This document shows positions 5,775 to 30,591 of a stretch of 40,156 bases of DNA, piece by piece. Each line of letters begins with the position of its first letter. Within the stretch, counting starts at the first letter, position 1. Position numbers and translations under genes: made by a program. The stretch lies in assembly GCA_945865565.1 (NCBI GenBank), contig CAMBEK010000015.1, positions 1 to 40,156 of the forward strand. The letters run 5' to 3'. The DNA is from Pseudobacteriovorax antillogorgiicola. GTDB lineage: Bacteria > Bdellovibrionota_B > Oligoflexia > Oligoflexales > RGVZ01. The notes under the pieces are model-generated. The model was not told the origin of the DNA. It was given only the letters and a program-made list of their open reading frames with translations, and did no database searches.

Positions 5775-7052
5775 ATGCTTGACATCAAATTCATTCGTGA
5801 AAATCCAGACCTGGTCGCCAAGGGCGCAAAAGACAAGAACCTCAAGATCGACATTGCAAAACTCCTGGAGCTGGACGCGACAGTCCGCAGCATGCAGGCC
5901 GAAACGGAAACCTTGCAGTCCGAACGCAACCGCCTCTCAAAAACCATAGCCCAGGCTGCGGCGACCGAGCGCGAAACTTTGAAAGCTCAAGTCCAAGGCC
6001 TCAAAGCACGCATGGACGAAATCGCGCCAAATCTAGACGCCTCACGCAGCGAATTCAACGCCATGATGCTCCTTGTTCCCGCGCCGGCCCGGGCCGATGT
6101 CCCAATCGGTCGCGACGACACGGAAAATGTTGAAGTGAAACGCTCGGGCACCATCCCGAAATTTGATTTCGAGCCGCTTGATCACGCGATCGTGGGGGAA
6201 AAACTTGGGATCGTTGATTTTGCACGCGGCGTGAAACTTGCGGGCAGCCGGTCTTACATCCTGAAGGGCGACGGCGCGCGGCTGGAGCAAGCCGTGTTGC
6301 GTTTCACGTTCGACAAGTTGTGCGAGCGTGGCTACACGCCACTGACGGTGCCTGTTCTCGTTAAAGAAGAGGCCATGATTGGCACCGGGTATTTTCCAAC
6401 CGGACGCGACCAGGCCTACTACGTTGAAAAAGACGAACGTGCTTTAGTTGGCACCGCTGAAGTCAGTCTGACCAGCTACTACAGCGGGGAAATCCTGCAG
6501 GAATCTGAACTCCCTTGCCGCATCATGGCGTGGAGTTCTTGTTTCCGTCGCGAAGCCGGGACGTATGGCAAAGACACCAAGGGGCTTTACCGCGTTCACC
6601 AGTTCCAAAAAATCGAACAAGTGATCATCGCCCCCGCCGACAATGAAGCGTCAGAAAAACTTCACGATGAACTATTGAAAAACGCCGAGGATGTCTTGCA
6701 GGCATTGGGTCTCGCCTACCGCGTCGTCTATGTCTGCACCGGTGATTTGGGCCAAGGCCAGGTCCGCAAGCACGACATCGAAACCTGGATGCCTTCGCGC
6801 AAGGCCTACAGCGAGACTCACAGTTGTTCCACCTTTCATGACTTCCAAGCGCGTCGCTTGCAGATGCGTTACCGGACGAAGTCGGGCGAAGTCAAAACCT
6901 GTTACACCCTGAACAACACGGCAATCGCAACGCCGCGCGTTTTGATTCCACTCCTTGAGTGTTATCAGCAAGCCGACGGCAGCGTAAAAATCCCCGACGT
7001 CCTCGTGCCCTACATGCAGGGACAAAAAATTATCGCCCTCCAGCGCGGCTAA
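5775..7052 (+). CDS. serS: Seryl-tRNA synthetase
   Basis: A 425-residue class II aminoacyl-tRNA synthetase that charges tRNA-Ser. The chosen ATG begins MLDIKFIRENPDLVAKG, the standard SerRS N-terminus. A long charged alpha-helical region follows (roughly residues 30-100, the tRNA-binding coiled-coil arm). Motif 2 is CFRREAGTYGKDTKGLYRVHQF. Motif 3 falls in the C-terminal LNNTAIATPRVLIPLLE. Length is normal. The open frame extends 61 codons further upstream, but that extension overlaps the divergent CPBP gene and lacks SerRS features. The stop is ten bases from the end of the convergent lipoprotein gene, with no obvious terminator between. Confidence 0.97.
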   Translation: MLDIKFIRENPDLVAKGAKDKNLKIDIAKLLELDATVRSMQAETETLQSERNRLSKTIAQAAATERETLKAQVQGLKARMDEIAPNLDASRSEFNAMMLLVPAPARADVPIGRDDTENVEVKRSGTIPKFDFEPLDHAIVGEKLGIVDFARGVKLAGSRSYILKGDGARLEQAVLRFTFDKLCERGYTPLTVPVLVKEEAMIGTGYFPTGRDQAYYVEKDERALVGTAEVSLTSYYSGEILQESELPCRIMAWSSCFRREAGTYGKDTKGLYRVHQFQKIEQVIIAPADNEASEKLHDELLKNAEDVLQALGLAYRVVYVCTGDLGQGQVRKHDIETWMPSRKAYSETHSCSTFHDFQARRLQMRYRTKSGEVKTCYTLNNTAIATPRVLIPLLECYQQADGSVKIPDVLVPYMQGQKIIALQRG

Positions 7053-7061
7053 TGACGAGCA

Positions 7062-8093
7062 TCACTGACCTGTGGTCCGGCAGACGTTGGGCAGGATCTG
7101 TGCCCACTGCGGGTTATACATGCTGACTGGGGTGCGACCATTGTCACCGCAACCAGCAACAGGGTTATAGATGACTTCGAGCGTCGAACCGGCCTTGAAT
7201 GGCATTTCGTAGGTCGGTTGCTGGCTGATACGCAGATGAGTAACCCACGAGTAAGATCCAGGGCCAGTGATGCGAATGGTCATGTCTGCGTCACAAGCAC
7301 TTCGCTGCGTGATAACACCGGCGATGGTCTGGTCCACAAGGGAAACGACCGATCCTGGGCTGACGGCAACCTTGCCAGTGAAACACAAAACAGCATCATT
7401 GAAGTCCTTGTCACCGCTGAACGGATGATCTTCGAAATTAACCCCGACGCGTACCGCTGCGACTCCCGGGACAACCTGAACTGGAATGACCTTTGTGTCA
7501 TCTCCAGTCGACACGATGACTTGAGTCTGACCCGGATTGCCACCGACGATAACGATCTGGTTGGGTTGGCTTCCGTTGTTGGGGTTCGCGACCCAAGGGT
7601 TGTTGCTGCTCGAAGTTACCTCGCCCGCCTGCGGCTGACGTGCGCCACTGCCATCATCGACAGAAACTGTGATGACACGCGACTCCCCCTCCGTCACGAC
7701 TACCGGGGACGTATCAACAATGACACGAACCGGGCTTGGAACGGGGGTTGGAACGGGGGTTGGAACCGGAGTCGGGACGGGAGTTGGATTGGGCACGACA
7801 ACAACCGGGTCCACAGGCGGCACAAAAGGATCGATATCAGCCGCTCCATGATCAAGGCCGTTGTCCACGGAAGGCTCAGCTGGTGATTCCACAACCGGAC
7901 CGGCTTGGAACTCTGTAGGTTCAAAGGATGGGTAGGACTCTGCCACCAAGGCATCGGCCTCTTGGTCGATACCTACTCGCGCAGCCGCGGTTTCCTTATT
8001 TACGAACGCTGACTCGTCGCCACAGGAAACAATATACACGGCGAGTACAACTGGACCTAGCCGCATCAGGCGGCGGTGGACGCGGGACAACAT
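7062..8093 (-). CDS. Lipoprotein with proline repeat linker and DUF4114-like domain
   Basis: A 343-residue predicted lipoprotein. The start at MLSRVHRR is supported by TTGGAGGAACGAATC just upstream; an in-frame start ten codons earlier has no such site. The signal peptide ends in a lipobox-like IVSC, so Cys would be lipidated. An acidic region follows, then a PT/PV repeat linker encoded by a 12-base tandem repeat. The next part resembles an Ig-like domain (VVVTEGESRVITVSV). The C-terminal domain contains NFEDHPFSGDKDFNDAVL, the acidic, probably calcium-binding motif of DUF4114-type domains. It is likely tethered to the membrane and displayed in the periplasm or at the surface. The role is unknown. 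Confidence 0.78.
   Translation of the reverse strand: MLSRVHRRLMRLGPVVLAVYIVSCGDESAFVNKETAAARVGIDQEADALVAESYPSFEPTEFQAGPVVESPAEPSVDNGLDHGAADIDPFVPPVDPVVVVPNPTPVPTPVPTPVPTPVPSPVRVIVDTSPVVVTEGESRVITVSVDDGSGARQPQAGEVTSSSNNPWVANPNNGSQPNQIVIVGGNPGQTQVIVSTGDDTKVIPVQVVPGVAAVRVGVNFEDHPFSGDKDFNDAVLCFTGKVAVSPGSVVSLVDQTIAGVITQRSACDADMTIRITGPGSYSWVTHLRISQQPTYEMPFKAGSTLEVIYNPVAGCGDNGRTPVSMYNPQWAQILPNVCRTTGQ
7736..7793. repeat. 12-base tandem repeat coding a PTPV linker
   Basis: Nearly five units of TTGGAACGGGGG, the last ones diverged, encode the Pro-Thr-Pro-Val repeat of the lipoprotein on the minus strand. The unit is a multiple of three, so copy number change would alter only linker length. Confidence 0.85.
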
Positions 8094-8547
8094 GATTCGT
8101 TCCTCCAAGACGTCCGGTCGCAACGACGACCGGCGCGATGGGAATATCGGATTCCCGGAATATTCTTTAGAGATTTTTGAAATACAAGATTAAACCCCAT
8201 CGCTTTCGATTGGTTACGCAACACAAACCAGACCGGACAGTTGGCGTTACGGGTACCGGCCTGCAGGCGGAGGGGATTTCTCTATTAACTGTTCCCATTT
8301 AAGGCAACGGAATCACCCTGTCAGCATCGTCCATCAACCAATCAAATCAACAACAGGACACGGTCATCACGCTAACCATACCCATAGTTTCCCGACTCCA
8401 ATACACTTTCACACGCCGCAACCCACGGAACCCACACCTTTATCGCGGATTTTGTTGATTTACCCCTAAAGCCTGGCCCGTCGCATCCGAAACTCCTGAT
8501 GCCAGCCAAGGCCATGTGGCCACTTGGCATTTAGAGGAGAACGCATC
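8094..8547. other. Divergent intergenic region with two hairpins
   Basis: This 454-base spacer separates two divergent lipoprotein genes and should carry both promoters. A perfect seven-pair hairpin (CCGGTCG/CGACCGG, six-base loop) lies at 8114-8133 in the leader of the minus-strand gene. A second hairpin lies at 8499-8530 before the plus-strand gene. No tRNA-like fold or extra gene was seen. Confidence 0.5.
8499..8530 (+). promoter_or_regulatory. Hairpin next to the ribosome site of the small lipoprotein gene
   Basis: The arms ATGCCA...GGCCA and TGGCC...TGGCAT can pair around a short loop, with an internal asymmetric loop. The right arm ends two or three bases before AGAGGAG, the ribosome site of the gene starting at 8548. 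It could modulate translation or protect the mRNA 5' end. It is inferred from sequence only. Confidence 0.4.
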
Positions 8548-8808
8548 ATGAAAGTATTTTTGAAGGCCGCAATTGCGGCAGTTGTTATTGCGTCCGCGGC
8601 AGGCTGTGCATCAACTTCTAAAGACGCGGAACTCGTTGCACCCGTCGGCGCCGAGTACGTAAAAACCGGGTCACGTGCACATGACGTGCGCATGGTTGCC
8701 AAAATGGACGATGTCGGTGACTACTCGCTGGACGGAGCCCCAGCGCAAAAAAAACCAGTGAAGAAAAACACTCCGAAAAATAAAATCACGACAACTTTTG
8801 GTTACTAG
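8548..8808 (+). CDS. Small lipoprotein
   Basis: An 86-residue predicted lipoprotein: MKVFLKAAIAAVVIASAAGC ends in a canonical lipobox (SAAGC). The mature part is short, polar and Lys-rich near the end (KKPVKKNTPKNK). The start is set by AGAGGAG about nine bases upstream and by the signal peptide; an earlier in-frame ATG at 8524 lies within the leader hairpin and is less likely. No domain was recognised. It stands alone between divergent and downstream genes. A role in the cell envelope is plausible but not shown. Confidence 0.75.
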   Translation: MKVFLKAAIAAVVIASAAGCASTSKDAELVAPVGAEYVKTGSRAHDVRMVAKMDDVGDYSLDGAPAQKKPVKKNTPKNKITTTFGY

Positions 8809-8913
8809 ACACCGAGATCCTCGGCTCCGTTTGTCGTTGTCTTGTTCAGGCTCTTGCCCCCGCCGATGATTTAGCCCACCCGCTTTCATTGAGTTTCGGG
8901 GTATGATTTCCTC

Positions 8914-9636
8914 ATGAAGCAGTCCCTTGAAAACCTACGATTGTCACTGGCAAGCCACCCAATTCTCCAGATAGCAACCGTCTTTGGTTCATTTGGAAGC
9001 CCGCGCGAAAACCCACAAAGCGACGTCGACATGATTGATTTGCTCACGGCCACAGGCACCGTGTTCAAAGAGGCCATGCCCACGGGACGTATTATAGTCA
9101 ACCACAACCGCGACTTGATGGGCCGCATCCTGATCCGATTGCTGTCCGAAGAAGAAGATTTTCAAAAGCGCAAACGCGCATTGGCCGCAGAGGTCCCCCC
9201 TCGATCAGGGAAAGGATTTTCCGTGTCCAAGGAGGTTCGCAGCCAAAAACTTGATTCCATTGCCCGTTGCCTGCAACGAATCGAAACTCACATGCCGGCG
9301 TCGGCCAAGGATCTCGCCCAAGACGTCGACTGCCAGGATATCTTAATCCTCAACCTTGAACGCCTCATCCAAACTTCGGTAGACTGCGCGTCTGTTCTGA
9401 TCGCCGATCGCAATTGGGTTCCCATGCCAGATTCCATGGCCTTAGCCTTCGCTGTGCTGGCCACTAAGAAGGTCATTCCTGACGCCCTTGCAGACCGCCT
9501 CGCCAAAGCCGTCGGTTTCCGCAACCTCTGCGTTCACGAATATGACAAGATCCATTGGGAAATCGTCTACGCCATCGTGACCAGGCATTTAGATGAATTC
9601 CGTCAATTCGCCGGGATGATTGACCGAGAGCCTTAA
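8914..9636 (+). CDS. Single-chain MNT nucleotidyltransferase-HEPT protein
   Basis: A 240-residue protein that appears to join both halves of an MNT-HEPT toxin-antitoxin pair. The N-terminal third has GS at residues 25-26, then D37-V-D39, exactly the GSX10DXD signature of minimal nucleotidyltransferases. The C-terminal half is helical and carries R203-X4-H208-X-Y210, the HEPT RX4HXY motif, in which the Tyr is AMPylated by MntA in the two-protein system. The nucleotidyltransferase part looks short: the region expected to supply the third acidic residue reads RIIVNHN, so activity is uncertain. No partner gene lies next to it. It could be a self-neutralised module, a degenerate remnant, or an enzyme with a HEPT substrate domain. 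Domain calls are from motifs only. Confidence 0.72.
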   Translation: MKQSLENLRLSLASHPILQIATVFGSFGSPRENPQSDVDMIDLLTATGTVFKEAMPTGRIIVNHNRDLMGRILIRLLSEEEDFQKRKRALAAEVPPRSGKGFSVSKEVRSQKLDSIARCLQRIETHMPASAKDLAQDVDCQDILILNLERLIQTSVDCASVLIADRNWVPMPDSMALAFAVLATKKVIPDALADRLAKAVGFRNLCVHEYDKIHWEIVYAIVTRHLDEFRQFAGMIDREP

Positions 9637-9682
9637 TCGCCTGTCGTTTATCCCCCCGTAACTACTGAACTTTAAAACAACG

Positions 9683-10905
9683 TTCAAAAAATCTTAAAGC
9701 GATCAGAACCCGTACCGAGATCTTCTATTTAGAGGGTCTTAATTTTGGCAAGTCTCTTGACTCCGCTGTCGTCCGTTCAAGTCGCAGGCAGAGCAATTGC
9801 CCCTAGGCACACTTTTGCCCTTTTCTTAGCCGTCACCTTTACCCTAACTCTCACCGTCTTCGTCACTTCCTGCAAAAGCGACTCGTCCGGCGCCGGTGGC
9901 GCAGGTTCAGACAGCGGAGACGTTTCGGTGGATGCCTACGGCAAGTCCGATAAGGAAGACGATTTTAAAATCGTAGGCGGAATAGCGTTGGCAGTTGTTG
10001 CCATGCCTAACTCCGAGTCCAACTTCGCAATTAATTCCAACCTACAGCCTCTAAGGCCCCTACTTCAATTAAACGGCAGTTATTCGTGCACGATGACCCT
10101 ACAAAAAGTCGACCGCGATGTTTTCACTCTGGTCGATGTTGAGGCAAATACCTCTTGTGCATTGGCCCCTGCCCCCTCGTCTGGTTTGTACTTCAGGATG
10201 ACTCAGCTGGAATCCGACACGCTGTATATTGCAACTGTGCGGGCCGTCGATCCAGTAACCAACACAGACAAAATCTTTAAGATCACCATGCCGCCGATGA
10301 GTGACGCCTGTCGTGCAGGCGAGATACAATTCACGATGATTGCCGACACCCTGACCACACGCGTCGCCAATATTGTCCTAGAACTGGTCACGCAGGCAGA
10401 TGTTGTATCGGCTCCTCCTATTGGGGGCGATGCTAACGCACAAAAAACGTTGCGTAATTTGATGCTGCCGGACCTGGGCCATTTTGCCGCAGCAAGTCGG
10501 CAAAAATTTTCGGATGCTGCCCGAACGTATTCCGAAACCTTTAGTCGCATTTATGACGCGCACTATGCGAAGCAAGGCGACCGGTACGAGACAGCAGTCT
10601 GCCAGGCTTTATTGGGCACGCTTATAAAGACAGGCAGTATCACGGACAATACTAACGTATCGAGTCAATCGAGTGCCGTGCAATCATGGCTTGCCATTTC
10701 GAAACTCGCGGATACGTTTAACGAAGAAGTGAAGACCGTTTACACCGTGACCAACGTGACCGCTTCTTTTGATGGTTTTTTTAGTTACCTTGCGGCTGTC
10801 ATCAAGGCAGCAGACGCTGGCAATCAAGTGAGTGCCGTCGTTGAAATTGCACCGGCAAATCAAAATGCGACGATCGCAACGATTTCTGAATCGATCGGCG
10901 ACACC
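9683..10905 (+). repeat. Tandem duplication, copy 1
   Basis: The leader (from about AAATCTTAAAGCGATCA) and roughly the first 385 codons of the gene at 9745 are repeated at about 11503-12765, with high identity especially after the GSYSCTMTLQKVDRD codons. The similarity fades in the Gly/Ser/Thr-rich linker, where the two genes take different C-terminal modules. Confidence 0.8.
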
Positions 10906-11184
10906 GATTCACCCGCCGGGGACGGAACGACCTCAGGCGGCGGAACCGCATCCGGCGGGAATACGAATTTGACTCTTTCGGCCGCATTCTCAGCAAACTG
11001 CGCGCGATGCCATGGTGCCACGGGAGCCGGAGGTTCGGGTATTAACTTGCGAGGTTATCCCCGCGCAAAAGCCTCCTTTGAATCTAAGGTCCGAAGTGGC
11101 GCAGGCAGCATGCCGGTATTCGCCACAACTAATTACAGCGACGTTGATCTGACGGCGGACTACACGTATTTAATTTCAAGGTGA
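9745..11184 (+). CDS. Lipoprotein with C-terminal cytochrome c-like domain
   Basis: A 479-residue predicted lipoprotein. The TTG start is chosen because AGAGGG lies eight bases upstream. A hydrophobic segment ends VTSC, a likely lipobox. Residues about 50-385 form a conserved helical/beta scaffold of unknown function, shared with the next gene. After a Gly/Ser/Thr linker, residues about 405-479 resemble a small c-type cytochrome: CARCH at 419-423 for covalent haem, and SMPVF, whose Met456 would be the distal ligand. It may therefore be an exported haem protein anchored by lipid. The electron partner is unknown. The clear paralogue downstream lacks the haem domain and carries a Kelch propeller instead. 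Confidence 0.82.
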   Translation: MASLLTPLSSVQVAGRAIAPRHTFALFLAVTFTLTLTVFVTSCKSDSSGAGGAGSDSGDVSVDAYGKSDKEDDFKIVGGIALAVVAMPNSESNFAINSNLQPLRPLLQLNGSYSCTMTLQKVDRDVFTLVDVEANTSCALAPAPSSGLYFRMTQLESDTLYIATVRAVDPVTNTDKIFKITMPPMSDACRAGEIQFTMIADTLTTRVANIVLELVTQADVVSAPPIGGDANAQKTLRNLMLPDLGHFAAASRQKFSDAARTYSETFSRIYDAHYAKQGDRYETAVCQALLGTLIKTGSITDNTNVSSQSSAVQSWLAISKLADTFNEEVKTVYTVTNVTASFDGFFSYLAAVIKAADAGNQVSAVVEIAPANQNATIATISESIGDTDSPAGDGTTSGGGTASGGNTNLTLSAAFSANCARCHGATGAGGSGINLRGYPRAKASFESKVRSGAGSMPVFATTNYSDVDLTADYTYLISR

Positions 11185-11560
11185 CGGAAAGCAGCCAGTA
11201 ATCATCGTCTCGAAAAAAGTTGAGGTTCGTACGATGTTTCTGAACAAGATTGAAAAACCAAGAATCGCAAAAGTTTTCCAGCCGTCGTAACTTTCTTGTT
11301 TTTTGCAGCCGCGTCGTCTACCGCGGCTCGCACCTTCTTCGAGACCGTCTGACGCAGTAATGCCAGTCAAACTGAAAATTATTTTAACGGCGACAACTCC
11401 CCAGTTGTCACAACCCGAACGTAACGCTGGTCGCAAGACCAGCCTTTCAACCGTCTTAGTTTGCCGCATATCATCCCGTAAGTACTGCTTTTTTAAACAT
11501 TCGCACAAAATCACTTTAAGCGATCAAAACCAATGCCGATATTGCCCATGGAGGCACAGC
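11185..11560. other. Intergenic region between duplicated lipoprotein genes
   Basis: No convincing gene is visible. A short frame near 11280-11350 reads like a broken hydrophobic signal segment (FLFFAAASS) that stops at once, perhaps a remnant. The last 60 bases resemble the leader of the first paralogue, so the duplication included the upstream control region. GGAGG at 11550-11554 is the ribosome site for the next gene. Confidence 0.4.
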
Positions 11561-12765
11561 GTGGCTGATCTACGGACGCTATTTTCGCACATTCGAGTCG
11601 CAGGAACCGCCTGTGGCGTTGCCGTTACATTTACCCACTGCATATTCCTTTTCGCTTTCTACTTCTCCTTCTCCTTCTCCGTCATTTCATGCAAAAGCGG
11701 CTCATCCGGCGGCGCGGGTGCGGACGGCGGAGAAGTTTCGGTAGATGCATACGGCAAGTCCGACGACGAGGACGATTTCAAAATCGCCGGTCAGCCAACG
11801 GCCATCACCGGTGGTGGATTGGCGTTGGCATTGGCAGGAAATCCAATTCCCAACTTCACGCCAAACTCCACAGCCAAATTCGCGTCCGATTCCAATTACA
11901 ATTCTAACCTGCGGCCCATGCGCCTTGACGGCAGTTATTCATGCACCATGACGCTGCAAAAAGTCGACCGCGATGCCTTCACCCTTGTTGATGTTGGGGC
12001 CACTGCATCATGCGCGTTGGCCCCCGCCCCCGCGTCTGGATTGTACTTCAGGATGACCCGACTAGAATCGGACGCGCTTTATGTCGCAACCGTGCGGGCG
12101 ATTGATCCGGTATCCAACGCAGACAAAGTCTACAAAGTCGCCATACCACCGATGAACAGCGCCTGCCGCGCGGGCGCGACGCAGTTCACGATGATTGCCG
12201 ATACCCTGACCACACGCGTCGCCAATGTTGTTTTGGAACTGGTGGCACAAGCCAATGCCGCCGGCGCAATGACAGGCGGGGCCGATGTAAATGCCCAGAA
12301 AACCTTGCGCAATTTAATCCTGCCCGACCTGGAGCATTTTGCCGCAGCAAGCCGGCAAGAATTTTCCGTTGCTGCCCGCACGTATTCCGAAACTTTCAGC
12401 CGCATTTATGACGAGCATTATGCGATTCAAGGTGATCAGTACGGAACGGCAGTTTGCCAGGCATTGATTGGCACGGTGTTAAAAACAGGCAGTATCGCGG
12501 AAAATACCAGTTTACCGAGTCAGTCGAGCGCCGTGCAATCATGGCTCGCCATTGCGAAAATTGCGGATGCCTTTAACGAAGAAGTGAAGACCGTTTATAC
12601 CGTGACCAATGTGACAGCTTCCTTTGATGGTTTTTTTGGTTACCTCGCCGCCGTCATCAAGGCCGCAGACACGGCCGATCAGGTGAGTGCCGTCATTGAA
12701 ATTGCTCCGGCAAATCAGAATGCAACCGTTACAACAATTTCGGAATTGACCGGCGATACCAGTTC
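11503..12765 (+). repeat. Tandem duplication, copy 2
   Basis: Second copy of the leader and N-terminal scaffold described for 9683-10905. It differs by many substitutions and by small insertions near the N-terminus (for example around PNFTPNSTAK). Confidence 0.8.
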
Positions 12766-13885
12766 ATCCAGTGGGGGCGGAACGACGGGCACTTCAGGTG
12801 GAGGGTCGTCGCAGTCGCCAAATACCTGGCTTACGATGAATAATACCGGGGCACCTGACGCTCGCCGCAATCATTCGGCAGTCTGGACCGGGACATCGAT
12901 GATCGTTTGGGGCGGCCAGTCTGATAGCACCCTGTGGAACACCGGTGCTATCTACAGCCCACTAACCGATTCGTGGAGCACGACGACAACCACCGGCGCT
13001 CCGGGGGCGCGTTATCGGCACACTGCCGTTTGGACTGGCTCCAAGATGATTGTGTGGGGCGGATCTGGCACATCGTTTTCTGACGATAATACTGGGGGAA
13101 TTTATGATCCTTCAAACAATACGTGGACATCTACCACCACAGTCCTTGCTCCTGCGCCGCGCCATGACCACACTGCCGTTTGGACTGAGTCCAAGATGAT
13201 CGTTTGGGGCGGCATTGTTCCGGGCGAAGTAGGTTTATATGGCACCGGTGGAATTTTTGACCCCAACGATGGCAGCGAAGGTTCGTGGACACCGACCGAT
13301 GCCTCGCCTTCCGCACCCAAGGTGCGATCCCTGCACACTGCTGTGTGGGCGAGCTCTCAAATGATTATTTGGGGTGGATATGTCACAGGCATTGCTGACG
13401 AAAATACTGGCGGAATTTATGATCCTTCGAGCAACCTGTGGACGCCAACGACAACCACCAACGCGCCCTCGGCGCGCCAAGACCATACTGCCGTTTGGAC
13501 TGGCTCCAAGATGATTGTTTGGGGAGGCTCCTCAGCCTCATATTTCAACGATGGTGGAATATTCGATCCGGCGGGTGGTGCTGGTGCGTGGACGCCAACG
13601 AACAATGCCGGCGCTCCCGCAGCACGCAACTATCACACCGCAGTCTGGACTGGAACCAAGATGATTGTTTGGGGCGGAAGCGACAGCACAACCGCCACCT
13701 TCAATTCCGGAGGGATCTACGACCTTGCAAACGACAGCTGGTCCGCGACTCCATCGACGGACGCCCCCTCGGCACGCTGGCTGCATTCAGCCTTTTGGAC
13801 TGGAACGAAAATGCTGATCTGGGGTGGTGCAACAGCACAAGCTGCACCGTCAGACATAAACACCGGCAGCCTCTACGCGCCTTGA
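11561..13885 (+). CDS. Lipoprotein with seven-repeat Kelch-type propeller
   Basis: A 774-residue predicted lipoprotein, paralogue of the preceding gene. The GTG start at 11561 is chosen over the longer open frame because GGAGG lies six bases upstream and VADLRTLFS aligns with the start of the paralogue. The signal segment ends VISC. The shared scaffold runs to about residue 400. After a Gly/Ser linker there are seven repeats of about 45-50 residues built on HTAVWTGSKMIVWGG with a following GGIYDP and W-T strand, the pattern of a Kelch-like beta-propeller. The segment before repeat 1 (NTWLTMNNTGAP) could supply the closing strand. Exported propellers of this type usually bind proteins or glycans; the ligand here is unknown. 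Confidence 0.85.
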   Translation: MADLRTLFSHIRVAGTACGVAVTFTHCIFLFAFYFSFSFSVISCKSGSSGGAGADGGEVSVDAYGKSDDEDDFKIAGQPTAITGGGLALALAGNPIPNFTPNSTAKFASDSNYNSNLRPMRLDGSYSCTMTLQKVDRDAFTLVDVGATASCALAPAPASGLYFRMTRLESDALYVATVRAIDPVSNADKVYKVAIPPMNSACRAGATQFTMIADTLTTRVANVVLELVAQANAAGAMTGGADVNAQKTLRNLILPDLEHFAAASRQEFSVAARTYSETFSRIYDEHYAIQGDQYGTAVCQALIGTVLKTGSIAENTSLPSQSSAVQSWLAIAKIADAFNEEVKTVYTVTNVTASFDGFFGYLAAVIKAADTADQVSAVIEIAPANQNATVTTISELTGDTSSSSGGGTTGTSGGGSSQSPNTWLTMNNTGAPDARRNHSAVWTGTSMIVWGGQSDSTLWNTGAIYSPLTDSWSTTTTTGAPGARYRHTAVWTGSKMIVWGGSGTSFSDDNTGGIYDPSNNTWTSTTTVLAPAPRHDHTAVWTESKMIVWGGIVPGEVGLYGTGGIFDPNDGSEGSWTPTDASPSAPKVRSLHTAVWASSQMIIWGGYVTGIADENTGGIYDPSSNLWTPTTTTNAPSARQDHTAVWTGSKMIVWGGSSASYFNDGGIFDPAGGAGAWTPTNNAGAPAARNYHTAVWTGTKMIVWGGSDSTTATFNSGGIYDLANDSWSATPSTDAPSARWLHSAFWTGTKMLIWGGATAQAAPSDINTGSLYAP

Positions 13886-13903
13886 TGTGGTTCCTGATCT
13901 AAA

Positions 13904-15352
13904 TCACTGCAGTCGCGCGATCACTTCCGCTATTGGCATACCGCGGGTTTCTTCGCCCGACGTCATGTCTTTGAGGTTGGCAGTGCGGGTGGCCATCTCC
14001 GAACCACCGACAGTGACCGTGTGGGCGTAGCCAAGGCGGCTCGCATACTTGAACTGATTGGCGACCTTGCCTTCGGTCACACCAATGTCGGCATGGACGC
14101 CGGCATTGCGCAGCAACGACACCACATCAAAGGCATAGGGCAACGCGTCTTGTGAGGCCACAGCCACCATCACGCCGCCCACGGCCGAGGTATCCGCCAG
14201 GCCAAGCTCTTCAATTCCTGCCACCAAACGGTCCAGGCCGACGGAACCGCCAACCCCCGGGAGCTCGCGGTTGCTAAATCGCGAGGCCAGATCATTGTAG
14301 CGGCCACCAGAACTAACCGAACCAAAGCCCGGCAAACGGTCCAAAGCCGTCTCAAACACGACGCCTGTGTAATAACCGAGGCCTCGGGCAATGCTGAGGT
14401 CCAATTTAAAAGTGACGCCAACGGGAGGCGCTGCGCGTTTCAGCAGCTCGAGGATTGTGGTCACGCGCAACAAATGAGGCTCGAGGGCCGCAAGGGCCGC
14501 CGGATTATCCATGTTCACAAGGTCGCGGAGGCGCATCAGATCGGCATTTCCATCAGCACCTTTTGCGGAAATTGCCTTTAAAACAAACGAAGCAGCCTCT
14601 TCAGAAGATCGACCGTGGGCGGGAATCGCCGCGAGAAGGCGCACGACTTCGCCCTCGCCCGCTTTTGCCAGCTTATCGATGGCAATCAGAGCCTTCGTTT
14701 CATCTGCCGCAGAGATCTCACTGCCGTATGCAGCCGCCAGGATGCCTGAAAGCAAACCACGGTGGTTGATGTGCATCGTCACGCCGCCGCAAGGCACGCG
14801 ACTCAAGACGGTGGCCAATGCCAGCATCACTTCAACATCCGCCGCCACGGAATCGACACCAATGATGTCAAAATCGCACTGGCCGAATTCGCGGTAACGC
14901 CCTTTTTGGGTATTTTCACCGCGCCAAACGTCGCCAATTTGAAGTTTCTTGAACGGGAAAACGAGTTCGCCCTGGTGTTCCGCGACAAATCGCGCGAACG
15001 GAATCGTCAGATCAAAACGAAGGGCAACCCTACGTCCCCCATGATCTTCAAAACGGTAGACTTGCTTGTCGGTTTCTTCGCCGCCCTGCCCGAGAAGAGT
15101 CTCTTCGTATTCAAGGGCTGGCGTGGCAATTTCCTGGAAGGCAGCGCGGCGCGCCACGGTCCGGATCTCTGCCAGAACCAACTGACGAATGCGCATGGGA
15201 GCAGGCAGATAATCCCTGAAGCCCTTTAGCTTGCGAGGATCAATCCGCGGTCGGACTATTTTGTGAGGCGTCCCTGCGTTCGGTGCGTCGGACGGATTTG
15301 AGGCGCTTGGCGCCGCCTGATTCTTGTTTTGATTCAGAGGATTCTTGTCCAC
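13904..15352 (-). CDS. hisS: Histidyl-tRNA synthetase
   Basis: A 482-residue class II enzyme that charges tRNA-His. Core motifs are GFRDYLP near the start, RFDLTIPFARFVAEH, GDVWRGENTQKGRYREFGQCDFD (motif 2 region), ARGLGYYTGVVFE (HisA box), GGRYNDL and GGSVGLDRL (motif 3). The C-terminal anticodon-binding domain begins near VMVAVASQD. The first 39 residues are a low-complexity Asn/Ser/Pro/Ala extension starting from GTG. They coincide with an overlap of 113 bases with the upstream small gene, and the conserved core begins almost exactly where that gene stops. The true start is therefore uncertain: no ATG, GTG or TTG occurs in frame between 15352 and the core. The assignment itself is secure. 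Confidence 0.95.
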   Translation of the reverse strand: MDKNPLNQNKNQAAPSASNPSDAPNAGTPHKIVRPRIDPRKLKGFRDYLPAPMRIRQLVLAEIRTVARRAAFQEIATPALEYEETLLGQGGEETDKQVYRFEDHGGRRVALRFDLTIPFARFVAEHQGELVFPFKKLQIGDVWRGENTQKGRYREFGQCDFDIIGVDSVAADVEVMLALATVLSRVPCGGVTMHINHRGLLSGILAAAYGSEISAADETKALIAIDKLAKAGEGEVVRLLAAIPAHGRSSEEAASFVLKAISAKGADGNADLMRLRDLVNMDNPAALAALEPHLLRVTTILELLKRAAPPVGVTFKLDLSIARGLGYYTGVVFETALDRLPGFGSVSSGGRYNDLASRFSNRELPGVGGSVGLDRLVAGIEELGLADTSAVGGVMVAVASQDALPYAFDVVSLLRNAGVHADIGVTEGKVANQFKYASRLGYAHTVTVGGSEMATRTANLKDMTSGEETRGMPIAEVIARLQ

Positions 15353-18825: not shown

Positions 18826-18877
18826 GAGGATCCTTCGCCTTCGGCTCAGGATGACGAATGAGACATCAGGATGACGG
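18826..18877. repeat. Dispersed repeat copy in intergenic island
   Basis: GAGGATCCTTCGCCTTCGG then CTCAGGATGACGAA, followed by CATCAGGATGACGG. It matches the elements at 1653-1743 and 30466-30591, here with an extra CTTCG hairpin (CGCCTTCGGC). Confidence 0.75.
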
Positions 18878-18991
18878 CGTGCGGCTGAGGCCATACGACT
18901 CGGATGATCCCATCGCATCAACACGACTTTCCGCGGAAAGTGTTTCCGAGCGCGTTCCCATCACTTTCGCGGCCGAAGGCGCGCAGATACC

Positions 18992-30431: not shown

Positions 30432-30463
30432 AAAAGCGGCCGGGAAACTGGCCGCTTTTTTTT
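30432..30463 (+). terminator. Intrinsic terminator after the protease gene
   Basis: AAAAGCGGCC pairs with GGCCGCTTTT around the loop GGGAAACT, followed by a run of T through 30463. The T run continues the stem, giving a strong Rho-independent signal 24 bases after the stop codon. Confidence 0.93.
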
Positions 30464-30465
30464 CC

Positions 30466-30591
30466 GTCATCCTGAGCGCAGCGAAGGATCCTTTCTTAAT
30501 CCGTCATCCTGAGCGCAGCGAAGGATGACGGGTTGAGGCTCAGGATGACGAGACGCAGCTCATGATGACGGAGTGTGTAGCCCAGGATGAT
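30466..30591. repeat. Dispersed repeat array
   Basis: Two near-identical units of GTCATCCTGAGCGCAGCG + AAGGAT (30466-30495 and 30502-30528) are followed by inverted or diverged units CAGGATGACG (30541), CATGATGACG (30561) and CAGGATGATGGG (about 30583). The first units are the reverse complement of the element in the helicase-nuclease gene. They begin immediately after the protease terminator and end before the HIT gene. Confidence 0.85.

Follow-up and report, generated by a model that had tools for sequence, protein, structure and literature searches.

Lipoproteins that pair a constant N-terminal part with a changing C-terminal part have a described precedent in the modular SitA proteins of myxobacteria (PMC8546572). 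Two further known kinds of lipoprotein bear on the present work: the small monohaem c-type cytochrome lipoproteins (PF13442-like) and the bacterial Kelch-repeat lipoproteins (PF24681, PF07646, PF01344). Here we describe two adjacent genes for predicted lipoproteins from an uncultured Oligoflexales genus. As with the SitA type, a constant lipoprotein N-terminus carries a changing C-terminus; unlike SitA (PMC8546572), the two genes hold no toxin domain, come in two variants only and give no evidence for cell-to-cell transfer. In gene 1 the linker and cytochrome domain have the layout of the small cytochrome lipoproteins, from which the protein differs by a scaffold of about 345 residues between lipid anchor and linker. 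Gene 2 ends in a seven-repeat block like those on the TIG, RCC1 and Ig-like lipoproteins of the family, but its N-terminal part is the new scaffold and not a TIG, RCC1, Ig-like or CHB_HEX domain.

The tandem pair is ordinary, known lipoprotein modularity on a scaffold family that is new, undescribed and restricted to one genus; it is a clear, small-scale case of bacterial domain shuffling, so far from that genus alone. It offers a clean natural example of how lipoproteins gain functions through a changed end domain behind a low-complexity linker, and the separate parts survive in relatives: the scaffold alone, the cytochrome alone, and Kelch repeats on other proteins. Its wider importance is modest because the distribution is narrow.

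Organization of the locus

The window, by which we mean the whole 40,156-nucleotide stretch analysed, is contig C15 of a 2.5 Mb genome in 44 contigs (G000). The features of the pair are as follows:

9650–9744, forward strand: gene 1 upstream region, duplicated with the gene (63 bp, 78% to the upstream region of the sister-species orthologue)
9745–11184, forward strand: gene 1, lipoprotein with scaffold and monohaem cytochrome c domain (TTG start, 479 aa)
9871–10905, forward strand: gene 1 mature scaffold, from lipobox Cys43 (SC-K) to GDT
10906–10968, forward strand: gene 1 linker, DSPAGDGTTSGGGTASGGNTN, the stretch in which homology to gene 2 is lost
10969–11181, forward strand: gene 1 cytochrome c module (CARCH at 10999–11013; conserved Met of SMPVF at 11110–11112)
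11468–11560, forward strand: gene 2 upstream region, homologous to that of gene 1
11561–13885, forward strand: gene 2, lipoprotein with scaffold and Kelch repeats (GTG start, 774 aa)
11690–12760, forward strand: gene 2 mature scaffold, from lipobox Cys44 to GDT
12761–12826, forward strand: gene 2 linker, SSSSGGGTTGTSGGGSSQSPNT
12827–13882, forward strand: gene 2 Kelch module, seven repeats

An earlier note on this DNA had the pair begin at 9683; that position falls in the duplicated upstream region, and gene 1 starts at TTG 9745. The gene 2 frame is open back to 11303, and its start is probably GTG 11561, because this codon lines up with the start codons of gene 1 and the orthologue in the sister species. 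Gene 2 is followed by a convergent hisS, and an immunity-type small gene is absent. Scans for promoters and terminators gave nothing clearly above shuffled sequence. A search of the host genome with the gene 1 upstream region returned no other significant copy, so there is no evidence of a regulon; the same search also left the diverged gene 2 copy unreported. Directly upstream of gene 1, a single gene (8914–9636) joins a nucleotidyltransferase-like start to a HepT-like ribonuclease domain (PF01934, E = 6e-23), and is a possible fused MntA/HepT toxin-antitoxin unit.

Related scaffolds with unrelated ends

The two proteins align at 66% over 409 residues (BLASTP, E = 9e-171). They share a mature scaffold of about 345 residues, with 77.3% amino acid and 79.2% nucleotide identity over 339 codons, and their end modules are unrelated (best E = 0.71, BLASTP). 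The earlier note's central observation, that adjacent genes with a common scaffold, lipobox and linker carry different C-terminal modules, is thereby borne out. Its description of a shared leader holds from the lipobox SCKS onwards, where identity is strong; the signal-peptide sequence itself is only weakly conserved between the genes.

The breakpoint was mapped on a three-way DNA alignment of gene 1, gene 2 and the sister-species orthologue. The start codons lie about 95 bp inside the homologous stretch, and the duplicated unit therefore took in the upstream region; homology continues through the scaffold into the opening part of the Gly/Ser/Thr linker and fades there, at about position 10,960 (gene 1) and 12,820 (gene 2), in agreement with the earlier proposal that similarity stops in the linker. 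As read from this alignment, the gene ends are joined behind a common linker; linker similarity can also come from convergence in low-complexity sequence. We found no intermediate or donor sequence that would pin down the recombination event, and paper searches did not find the scaffold with these end modules.

The cytochrome and Kelch modules

Both ends are what the earlier note had taken them for. Residues 413–476 of gene 1, which include the CARCH motif, match Cytochrome_CBB3 (PF13442) with E = 1.3e-9 and 38.6 bits (cut-off 27) over profile positions 8–68 of 68. The CxxCHG motif and the Met of SMPVF are conserved in all nine aligned cytochrome modules (9/9), and this Met is a candidate distal ligand. 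The host genome encodes cytochrome assembly proteins (three matches to Cytochrom_C_asm, PF01578, above cut-off), so haem attachment to the gene 1 module is plausible. Across the phylum, the module occurs mostly in small proteins in which a lipobox leads into a Ser/Gly/Pro/Thr linker and then the cytochrome; gene 1 thus looks like one of these with a scaffold set between anchor and linker. The linker and cytochrome of gene 1 are 35–53% identical to those of the phylum's cytochrome lipoproteins, which share its CxxCHG and Met and, for the most part, its YSDxD motif; a congener (G002) encodes a stand-alone lipoprotein cytochrome of 109 aa that is 53% identical to the gene 1 module.

At the C-terminus of gene 2, the Kelch models PF24681 (E = 1.4e-53), PF07646 and PF01344 all score above their cut-offs, and the translation shows seven HxAxW-xxMxxWGG motifs. 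The Kelch part has an omega of 0.32. Elsewhere in the genus and family, Kelch blocks are found on unrelated lipoproteins with TIG, RCC1, Ig-like, CHB_HEX and Lcl_C domains. Orthologues aside, the gene 2 block is matched best by that of a lipoprotein that adjoins the gene 2 orthologue in the sister species (G001), at 310 bits versus about 270 for the next; this is suggestive, though not proof, of a local source in a neighbouring lipoprotein. Two long proteins with Kelch and TIG domains, at L060:640-3990 and L062:2236-4605 (in G000 and G001), have repeats far beyond one propeller, which suggests an expansion of Kelch blocks in the genus.

An undescribed scaffold family

The scaffold is an undescribed protein family without a database entry. 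In a Pfam scan of six members, none scored above a curated cut-off (there were four stray matches, with best E values of 0.022 to 3.4), and a PDB profile search found nothing significant. A hydrophobic segment followed by VTSC-K or VISC-K can be read by eye, and SCK is invariant in six family members. Four cysteines beyond the lipobox Cys are invariant in the scaffold alignment, so two disulfides are possible. Both genes bear the mark of purifying selection over the scaffold (omega 0.15–0.17).

Structure prediction, which the earlier note had proposed as a check, gave the scaffold a beta-rich first part, with pLDDT of 70–80 in places, and a helical remainder of very low confidence (pLDDT 36 when modelled alone), at a mean pLDDT of 45 for the scaffold model. 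The first ~150 residues resemble the general fold of Ig/Fn3-like beta-sandwich domains, with a best structural match at Z 6.7, rmsd 3.6 and 97 aligned residues on a low-confidence model (VIA-align). Z is under 8, identity is 5–15% and there is no sequence family match. We set aside copper proteins of the CopC/PcoC/CrdA type and FetP as relatives, since theirs is a common beta-sandwich resemblance, too weak to use (VIA-align). Foldseek found nothing for the scaffold model at E <= 0.001.

Profile searches of 115 relatives, 43 genomes of the order and 58 of the phylum placed the scaffold within a single genus, in three of its four species. A pattern-based scan across 84,980 species genomes, a method that can miss distant relatives, returned only two congeneric MAGs, Oligoflexales bacterium RH-26jul17-204 and 'Pseudobacteriovorax antillogorgiicola' MsH-01oct19-222; these came from a six-row version of the profile, a two-row version having found nothing. 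Searches of plasmids and viral contigs also found nothing. Listing the C-terminal partners of the scaffold, again a check suggested beforehand, yielded cytochrome and Kelch, two types within one genus. Counting the module-less form there are three states: with cytochrome (one gene), with Kelch (one orthologous pair) and with no module (a third gene, in three species). This third member (contig C6 in G000; its orthologues are in G001 and G003) terminates right behind the scaffold in all three species, and keeps the same gene neighbourhood in each, with a CHASE2-SpoIIE phosphatase on one side and an acyl-CoA dehydrogenase on the other.

Age of the duplication

In the sister species, the interval between serS and hisS contains a scaffold gene; at the protein level its identity is 95.5% with gene 2 and 76% with gene 1. 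Its contig (C50) stops inside the scaffold; another (C55) begins inside Kelch repeats that are 83% identical to those of gene 2, and runs on into hisS, the arrangement also seen in the window. The simplest reading would be one gene broken by assembly, and we join the two halves because of their identity and synteny; the gap between the contigs may hide an extra copy. In the place of gene 1, the sister species has instead a 1345-aa lipoprotein that ends in Kelch repeats.

Synonymous divergence between genes 1 and 2 (dS) is 0.75 over the scaffold and 0.84 over the shorter common part, and that between gene 1 and the sister-species scaffold gene is 0.93. Gene 1 is approximately equidistant from both gene 2 orthologues, and the duplication is therefore older than the species split. 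Gene 2 and its orthologue differ by a dS of 0.16, roughly one-fifth of the value between genes 1 and 2; hisS gives 0.06 and serS 0.10. The grouping of gene 2 with its orthologue has a support of 92 in the protein tree and 43 in the nucleotide tree. The Kelch end most likely predates the split of the two species.

Origin of the pair

The reading that we consider reasonably probable is a tandem duplication that included the upstream region, followed by replacement or addition of the 3' module through the linker, so that gene 1 would encode an electron carrier and gene 2 a binding propeller, both tethered. The ancestor would have been module-less or single-module, and would have duplicated before the two species of the genus separated. 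Recombination through the Gly/Ser/Thr-rich linker DNA would then have replaced or extended the 3' end: one copy would have gained its cytochrome from a small lipoprotein of the lipobox-linker-cytochrome type, which is common in the phylum, and the other a Kelch block of the kind that these genomes carry on several further lipoproteins. For both proteins we predict Sec-dependent secretion, lipidation at the Cys and tethering to a membrane, probably the outer one (Lys at position +2). In this scheme the gene 1 product may carry electrons on its single haem while tethered, the gene 2 product may bind or adhere through its tethered propeller, and the scaffold would be a spacer or docking part. We regard as doubtful the bolder view that the scaffold is a lineage-specific docking platform of the Oligoflexales envelope, with the linker as a standing recombination site through which species of the genus swap redox, recognition or other modules at a conserved position in the envelope.

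The earlier note had inferred duplication followed by module exchange. That a lipoprotein gene was duplicated, and that different modules were joined via the linker, stands, whether by replacement or by addition. It is possible, although we lean against it, that nothing was exchanged, and that an ancestor with a bare Ser/Gly-rich tail gave rise to duplicates that each acquired a module of its own. Such a tail is seen in G003, where the paralogue ends in SGSSSSAGSSSSAGP with no module, and all three known members at the third locus (3/3) are without one. Against this, the gene 1 and gene 2 linkers can be aligned as DNA, so the ancestor had the linker in full, and this makes more sense if a module was already attached to it; the point is not decisive.

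The further claims that the duplication was recent, and that the scaffold is a general anchor for many exported domains, together make an improbable account. The tandem arrangement, the common upstream region and the abrupt loss of similarity in the linker would all suit it, but a dS of 0.75–0.9 between the copies against 0.16 between species contradicts a recent event. As to a general anchor, there are indeed two module types, but the idea is overstated: across 58 genomes of the phylum, 115 relatives, plasmids and viral contigs, as well as the pattern scan over 84,980 species genomes, the scaffold came up in one genus only, with these two types and a module-less form. A polymorphic lipoprotein set like myxobacterial SitA, with a constant delivery N-terminus, a variable C-terminal effector and a variable locus, is very improbable: a constant N-terminal part does precede a variable C-terminal part, and the serS-hisS interval does vary between the four species, but the modules are a cytochrome and Kelch repeats rather than toxin domains, gene 1 and gene 2 run on to convergent hisS with no immunity-type small gene, and two variants only are known.

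Variation around the pair

Returning to the serS-hisS interval (7050–13904 in the window), we noted that its gene content differs in all four species compared: besides the host, a histidine kinase and a Kelch lipoprotein are present in G001, an ATPase_2/DUF234 gene in G002, and an unrelated gene with an RCC1-repeat lipoprotein on the hisS side in G003. No tRNA or Rfam RNA was found that could account for the variable locus. G000, G001 and G002 all retain a small gene for a lipoprotein following serS. Elsewhere in the window there are short dispersed repeats around CGTCATCCTGAGCGCAGCGAAGGATGACG, at 18843–18881 and 30450–30575 and also near 1651–1704, in both direct and inverted orientation; the sister species has them too.
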